Below the pieces are notes generated by a model that saw only the letters and a program-made list of their open reading frames with translations, was not told where the DNA came from and searched no databases. Positions 43,736 to 47,935 of a stretch of DNA of 56,721 bases are shown here, piece after piece. The stretch is taken from positions 1 through 56,721 of the forward strand of contig JALSTK010000094.1 of NCBI GenBank assembly GCA_026983775.1, read 5' to 3'. The stretch comes from Calditrichia bacterium (GTDB taxonomy: Bacteria; Calditrichota; Calditrichia; Calditrichales; Calditrichaceae). The position numbers were made by a program, and so were the translations under genes. Position 1 is the stretch's first letter, and each line of letters begins with the position of its first letter.

Positions 43736-43753
43736 AGTATGGGAACAATTTAT

Positions 43754-43780
43754 GGTTCTATGTCGATCTGTATGGGTTAT
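43754..43780 (+). repeat. ISL3-type terminal-sequence relic
   Basis: GGTTCTATGTCGATCTGTAT plus GGGTTAT matches 21 of 27 positions of the sequence at 47545-47571 that precedes the decayed ISL3 transposase. It may be a solo end of a related element. No transposase follows it. Confidence 0.4.
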
Positions 43781-43870
43781 CCATTATGAGCAAGATAGTG
43801 AGATTTACAAAACTACGTAAAAAAATATTCGGTATTTGCAACAGATTCCAGTCGATTGGAAGGAAAAAAC

Positions 43871-43954
43871 AACTCACCCCTCTTTCCCCTCTCTTTTAAG
43901 AGAGGGGAAGTTGAAACATCACATGGACGAAAATACCGTTAGAAGGGGTGAGTT
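43871..43954. repeat. nested palindromic repeat
   Basis: An outer 11-bp inverted repeat (AACTCACCCCT at 43871-43881, AGGGGTGAGTT at 43944-43954) encloses a second stem of about 12 bp (TTCCCCTCTCTT / AAGAGAGGGGAA, 43884-43909). Such REP-like or MITE-like pieces occur between genes in many genomes. The short open frame crossing it (43836-44045) is not supported as a gene. Confidence 0.65.
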
Positions 43955-44089
43955 ACTATCCGTTCCGGTTCAAATGATTGCTTCATTAAGAAATGAGGAT
44001 ATTGGGAAAAAGGTATCCGGTTATTCGGTCGGATACTTATTTTAGTTTAGGAATCCTACCTATATCAAATGATAGAGGGAACAATCTAT

Positions 44090-44493
44090 TGCTCTACTGG
44101 GTTTCTTGTGGTTAAATGCCGTAAAAATGTCATCCTTACATCATCACGAAGTGATGCAATATAAGTAGCCACACCCGTCAGCCGCCGGGCAGGAGCGAAG
44201 CCTGTGGGCAAGATGCAACCGAATAGGATTACCGCAAAGCGGTAAAATAAACCAGGCCTTTCAATGTATAGGGTCTCCTATTTCGATAGCCTGCTCTGTG
44301 TTCTACCTTCGACGCCTTCAGCGTCGCGCTCTCTTTTTCCGCTTTACCACAGGCTCCGCCTGTGGCTACTCATATTCGTATCCTTCGGATACTATTGTTT
44401 TTAAATACAAGATGAACGAAACAATAAAAATTGTTTAATTCATTTTATCATTCTTCAGTTAATATACGGCTTCACAAGAAACCCGGAAGAGCC
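44090..44493. mobile_element. 404-bp ISL3-type MITE with 8-bp target duplication
   Basis: 21-bp terminal inverted repeats (44090-44110 and 44473-44493) agree at 18 positions; the outer part of the right one reads GGCTCTTCCGGGTTTCTTGT on the minus strand, a GGCTCT-type ISL3 end. Flanking 8-mers CAATCTAT (44082-44089) and CAATTTAT (44494-44501) match at 7 of 8, as expected for the 8-bp duplication of ISL3 elements. Inside lies a large imperfect palindrome: ATATAAGTAGCCACA (44159-44173) faces TGTGGCTACTCATAT (44361-44375), and at least five tight hairpins with 3-5-base loops are embedded (44142-44156, 44230-44244, 44310-44326, 44347-44365, 44378-44392). It has no coding capacity. Confidence 0.8.
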
Positions 44494-44518
44494 CAATTTA
44501 TCAAGGGTCTCGCAGATT

Positions 44519-47544: not shown

Positions 47545-47571
47545 GGCTCTATGTCCTTTTGTGTGGGTAAT
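47545..47571 (+). repeat. left-end-like sequence of the ISL3 relic
   Basis: GGCTCTATGTCCTTTTGTGT followed by GGGTAAT lies 28 bp before the decayed transposase start, where an ISL3 left inverted repeat is expected. It resembles the solo end at 43754 (21 of 27). I found no matching right end. Confidence 0.5.
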
Positions 47572-47598
47572 ATACTGAGAATATATTAAATTTGCTTT

Positions 47599-47935
47599 AT
47601 GAATTCAGCACATTTATTTACACAGGCATTGGGTTTACTTCCGCCCTGTTATGCAAAGAAGATGGAATTTTCCAAAGTCTTAGAGGAAAAAAGCGTTTAG
47701 ATATTTATTTACGTTTTAAGGGACTCAAAATTTAAAGATAAAGAAGGCATTGGGTACCCTGTTTATGACACTCTTGAACGTAGTTGGTAATACCTGATTT
47801 TTTTGACTTGTTTTATTTATGCAAAAATCCCCCGTATAAGGACTTCGAAGAGGAACATCAGGCAAGTACAATTTCACTGGGCGCGTCCTGATAGCGGTTT
47901 TACTTTATCCTTTCTTCCCTGACGGTTTCGCTTCT
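47599..47935 (+). pseudogene. decayed ISL3-family transposase, N-terminal part
   Basis: Translated in shifting frames the stretch reads MNSAHLFTQALGLLPPCYAK, then a frame slip to KRLDIYLRFKG, then GYPVYDTLERSW, an in-frame stop, KIPRIRT, and RQVQFHWARPDSGFTLSF. This follows the N-terminal zinc-binding and HTH part of ISL3 transposases (ALGLLPP, CPVHDTRERTWRH, VPRVKC, WARPGSGFTLLFE). Zinc-ligand cysteines are lost. At least two frameshifts and several stops make it non-functional, and the catalytic DDE part was not found. Confidence 0.75.

Follow-up and report, generated by a model that had tools for sequence, protein, structure and literature searches.

What kind of element occupies positions 44090-44493 of this 56,721-nucleotide stretch of Calditrichia bacterium DNA (the window), and what is the large palindrome inside it? 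A preliminary description had proposed a non-autonomous element (MITE) of the ISL3 type, and had suggested that the interior might be either a second repeat family or a structured RNA or DNA that helps mobility. We followed up both proposals in the genome to which the window belongs (G000; 4.03 Mb in 179 contigs, 99.5% complete) and in its relatives.

The element is 404 bp long, and its boundaries stood as originally drawn. The terminal inverted repeats, TGCTCTACTGGGTTTCTTGTG on the plus strand (44090-44110) and GGCTCTTCCGGGTTTCTTGTG on the minus strand (44473-44493), are identical at 18 of 21 positions, and the left repeat agrees with the pattern GGCTCTTCYGGGTTTCTTGTG at 19 of 21; the consensus end of the family, genome-wide, is GGCTCTACCGGGTTTCTTGTG(GTTAA). 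The flanking octamers CAATCTAT (44082-44089) and CAATTTAT (44494-44501) match at seven of eight positions. Between the ends, the palindrome arms AATATAAGTAGCCACA (44158-44173) and TGTGGCTACTCATATT (44361-44376), both given on the plus strand, are complementary at 94%. The folded interior of approximately 250 bp is real, as single-strand folding lies far beyond that of shuffled sequences, with a z score of -9.3 for the DNA fold of the whole element and of -5.5 (plus strand) and -6.6 (minus strand) for the RNA fold of 44140-44393. Hairpins are present inside the element as described, but the earlier count of five was too low, since seven were found whose stems of 5-8 bp pair perfectly. Hairpins were mapped at 44142-44156 (CATCAC-GAA-GTGATG), 44229-44245 (TTACCGC-AAA-GCGGTAA), 44268-44281 (ATAGG-GTCT-CCTAT), 44310-44326 (CGACGC-CTTCA-GCGTCG) and 44378-44392 (GTATCC-TTC-GGATAC), together with an A/T-rich one at 44419-44436 (AAACAAT-AAAA-ATTGTTT). 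No ORF of at least 80 aa was found inside the MITE.

The element is one member of a populous family, and the refuting condition of no other copies clearly failed. A first search of the genome returned 40 scored copies at about 82-92% identity, plus further unscored candidates, and no fewer than 55 distinct insertions were counted among the loci that were read, including 37 of nearly full length (360-450 bp). Pairwise identity averages 88.5%, with a median of 93.7% to the nearest neighbor. The MITE ends occur 62 times in the genome at ≤2 mismatches and 101 times at ≤3, compared with zero for the reversed-pattern control at either threshold. Octamer duplications matching at seven or more of eight positions flank 16 of 36 full copies, compared with 1.2% of swapped (mismatched) flank pairs, and exact duplications flank 11 of the 36, compared with 0.16%. 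In the other 20, strict boundaries reveal no good octamer repeat, and five of these copies lie within a composite repeat. A DNA search of 59 related genomes found a MITE copy in none of them, so that the family was seen only in its own genome. When 84,980 species were scanned for the exact ends, the single match lay inside an FtsK-like gene of a planctomycete and was dismissed as due to chance.

Full-length ISL3 elements with nearly matching ends exist in relatives, whereas none was found in the element's own assembly. A genome of the same family (G005; 4,978,541 bp) contains sixteen intact ISL3 elements of 1,288 bp with the ends GGCTCTACTGGGATTTTTGTG, and the five that were checked all have exact 8-bp duplications. 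They encode a 410-aa protein with the domains DDE_Tnp_ISL3, Zn_ribbon_ISL3 and HTH_Tnp_ISL3, which scores above the NCBIfam ISL3 cut-off. The terminal repeat of these elements agrees with that of the MITE at 18 of 21 bases at each end, they make 8-bp duplications as the MITE does, and their left subterminal stretch weakly resembles that of the MITE (AAAAAT..ATCCTTA, p 0.048); unlike the MITE, they are autonomous, encoding the 410-aa transposase. A genome of the same class (G036) carries a 1,288-bp ISL3 element whose end is a 92% match to the MITE consensus across 25 bp and whose protein is 74% identical to the G005 type. Neither a MITE copy nor the GTAG core described below was found in the G005 genome. 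Conversely, no autonomous ISL3 element with GGCTCTACYGGG ends was found in the G000 assembly, where the nearest ISL3 proteins show 29-30% identity along most of their length (40% for a short fragment on C179). The ISL3 elements on C154, C139 and C179 were ruled out as partners by their ends (GGTTCTCTTGGCAAATCTATGGGTA, GGTTCTTTCTCGTTTTGTGTGGGTA and GGCTCTATGTCGAATAGTGTGGGTA, respectively). Two tandem ISL3 transposase genes of equal score lie 1,440 bp apart at G000:C154:17215-19779 (L031/L032), with the ends GGTTCAACAG/GGTTCTCTTGG. In the window itself, a decayed N-terminal piece of an ISL3 transposase, interrupted by stops, lies at 47545-47913 behind the end GGCTCTATGTCCTTTTGTGTGGGTA and matches the C139 copy (tblastn 1.8e-11).

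The ISL3 type, as judged from sequence, is supported by the multiplicity of copies, by the octamer duplications and by the matching ends of full-length ISL3 elements in relatives, and 44090-44493 is almost certainly an ISL3-type MITE. We infer that it was mobilized in trans by an ISL3 transposase. Because the cognate transposase is missing from its own assembly, the family appears to be orphaned, although an unassembled partner is possible in a draft of 179 contigs.

A second and different ISL3-type MITE of about 328 bp (MITE-B; 43754-44081, minus strand), whose ends begin with GGTTCTATGTC, directly abuts the element under study (MITE-A). Its outer octamer at 43746-43753 is CAATTTAT, and CAATCTAT at 44082-44089, which also matches this copy at seven of eight positions, serves both elements, giving the order CAATTTAT, MITE-B, CAATCTAT, MITE-A, CAATTTAT. 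Most simply, one MITE inserted first and the octamer it left behind then served as target for the other; alternatively, the two MITEs may have moved as a single unit. Elsewhere, MITE-A is nested at one position in a longer MITE-B copy and has been amplified as a composite (L003, L007, L013 and L017); L012 and L067 are partial instances, and a 515-bp relative of MITE-B lies at G000:C45:9872 (L126:873-1387). A related repeat beside the element was considered as the empty site of the window but is actually MITE-B; because approximately 110 bp around the nesting site are absent from it, it does not qualify as a clean empty site. The arrangement in the window has a second instance at L075:3689-3722, where 8-9 bp separate the end of a MITE-A copy from another repeat's decayed ISL3-type end. 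At L064:266-1092, L070:3200-4024 and L071:552-1301, the MITE's right half is fused to a non-coding repeat of about 0.8 kb, which in L071 is repeated in tandem with the MITE.

The palindromic core consists of two inverted GTAG-tagged hairpins (GTAGCCACAGGC-NNN-GCCTGTGG) that flank a hairpin-rich spacer. The left outer arm includes the GTAG tag and the start of the left hairpin unit, the loop of which usually holds a 20-nt insert (CCCGTCAGCCGCCGGGCAGG; 44174-44193, plus strand, placed by copy alignment). The right hairpin unit, read on the minus strand as GTAG followed by CCACAGGC-NNN-GCCTGTGG, lies at 44347-44369. The unit is present in both arms of L078 and in the right arm of most copies. The stem of the right unit is nearly invariant and its 3-nt loop is hypervariable, with 13 triplets among 49 copies; the loops of three neighboring hairpins are almost constant. 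A test for inversion of the loop found three reverse-complement pairs among the 13 triplets, which was not convincing (p 0.09).

L074 and L075 lack the 20-nt insert in the left arm but have it, reverse-complemented, in the right arm, with the direction of the spacer kept, and L078 has it in neither arm. Such an arm exchange would be the expected product of template switching between the arms, a process known for inverted repeats in yeast (PMC8604942). Deletions between direct repeats of GCCTGTGG produced the shorter forms L065, L067 and L124, and in some shorter forms the deletion occurred at GTA instead. The core can also be deleted altogether: the core-less copies L066, L072 and L073 have one deletion junction in common at three unrelated sites, and core-less forms have therefore either moved or arisen repeatedly. 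Both the exchange between arms and the deletions at internal repeats are compatible with slippage during replication of a palindrome. The proposal that the core is a second repeat family is not supported, since all placeable matches to the GTAG unit in the genome fall within MITE copies; an odd match at C69:61578, considered as a free-standing unit, proved to be a core-deleted MITE copy. The interior is unusual for a MITE, as the preliminary description had remarked, both in its size and in the elaborateness of the palindromic core.

Does the folded core do anything for the element or for the host? For stems that were selected solely on the window copy, we counted 1.12 shared variants per column compared with 2.74 elsewhere (permutation p 0.0014), a depletion equaled in 1 of 352 circular shifts, whereas private changes were not depleted (0.47 compared with 0.39). 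This pattern would fit constraint during spread rather than after insertion, and together with the roughly 10:1 ratio of core-bearing to core-less copies and the two terminator-like hairpins it speaks for a core that actively aids spread, as a DNA foldback, as a barrier that shields the ends from transcription or as a structured RNA. However, on a tree the stems changed less on both terminal and internal branches without significance (p 0.46 and 0.14, respectively), and we therefore do not claim protection of stems limited to the period of spread, a reading suggested by the equal private changes. Moreover, double compensatory changes in the core stems are nearly restricted to one closing pair, changes compatible with G-U pairing favor neither strand, several core-less loci have a common junction, and Rfam gave no match to a known structured RNA family at either the gathering threshold or E ≤ 5. 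The suggestion that the core helps mobility was not substantiated: core stems vary about half as much as the remaining columns, but the core-less junction is shared and neither convincing compensation nor a G-U bias was seen. We regard an active aid to spread as rather unlikely, and a mild constraint on the core as possible. A role for the copies as domesticated host elements, such as terminators or regulatory RNAs, might be suggested by the fact that all 37 near-full-length copies lie between ORFs and that the two terminator-like hairpins are on one strand. However, convergent genes flank just 4 of 32 copies and divergent genes 10, gene ends are not preferred, copies at tandem genes show no preferred orientation (nine same, nine opposite), and private mutations in the stems are not depleted; such domestication appears extremely improbable.

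The GTAG tags raise another possibility, namely that the core derives from the capture of a REP dimer, a REPIN-like pair of inverted hairpins once moved by a Y1 (RAYT) transposase and now borne by the ISL3-type MITE. As in GTAG REPs (PMC3733652), GTAG stands immediately 5′ of an 8-bp stem with a variable 3-nt loop, and the hairpins form an inverted pair around a structured spacer, as in REPINs (PMC3733652, PMC3116915). The genome also has a single Y1_Tnp gene, with a GTAG hairpin, GTAGTCCCGGCTTGCCGGGA, on either side. However, these hairpins have a stem different from that of the core, so that no RAYT gene flanked by the same repeat was found in the genome, and the core hairpin shows no dispersal independent of the MITE. 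Its spacer measures approximately 150 bp compared with the usual 20-100 in GTAG REP dimers, and with 14 hairpin ends in the core, a chance GTAG at one of them has odds of roughly 1 in 20. We therefore consider a captured REP dimer unlikely. The only Y1/IS200-like transposase gene lies at G000:C117:35056-36554 (L123), and hairpins similar to those beside it occur at C161:25522 and 27295. A hybrid, in which an ISL3-type MITE moved as double-stranded DNA by a DDE enzyme carries a REPIN-like GTAG dimer that is kept by selection on the element itself, is improbable in our judgment; if it were true, one unit could use two unrelated mobility systems.

Overall, a non-autonomous ISL3-type MITE with an inherited cargo core explains the locus best, and we hold this combined reading with good confidence. 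In this view, a DDE transposase from an ISL3 subgroup, now seen in one genome of the same family and one of the same class but absent from the element's own assembly, would have recognized the 21-26 bp ends in trans and thereby moved the element. The core itself is probably cargo, most likely an inherited foldback of two inverted GTAG-tagged units around a hairpin-rich spacer, which replication slippage and template switching may have reshaped. It is probably unnecessary for movement and at most mildly favored during the spread of the element; the lower variation in stem columns than in other core columns argues against pure cargo, which predicts no such difference.

ISL3-type MITEs with stem-loops are already known, and it is common for prokaryotic MITEs to share just their ends with the autonomous partner (PMC3852290). 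Among published cases, the closest is a 187-bp MITE of Microcystis aeruginosa PCC 7806, which likewise has GGCTCT-type ends (GGCTCTTCG) matching an ISL3 element, 8-nt duplications, a stem-loop fold and no transposase, and occurs in many Microcystis genomes (PMC11448079). It differs in being half as long and in having its 1,215-bp ISL3 partner within the same genome, and no description of a GTAG hairpin pair was seen for it (PMC11448079).

The family described here is a numerous group of ISL3 MITEs from a lineage that has received little study, and its cognate transposase can be seen only in relatives; it exemplifies a parasite that has seemingly outlived its helper element. Through their arm exchanges and recurrent deletions, the more than 50 copies of the core preserve a natural record of the changes that long palindromes undergo in bacteria.
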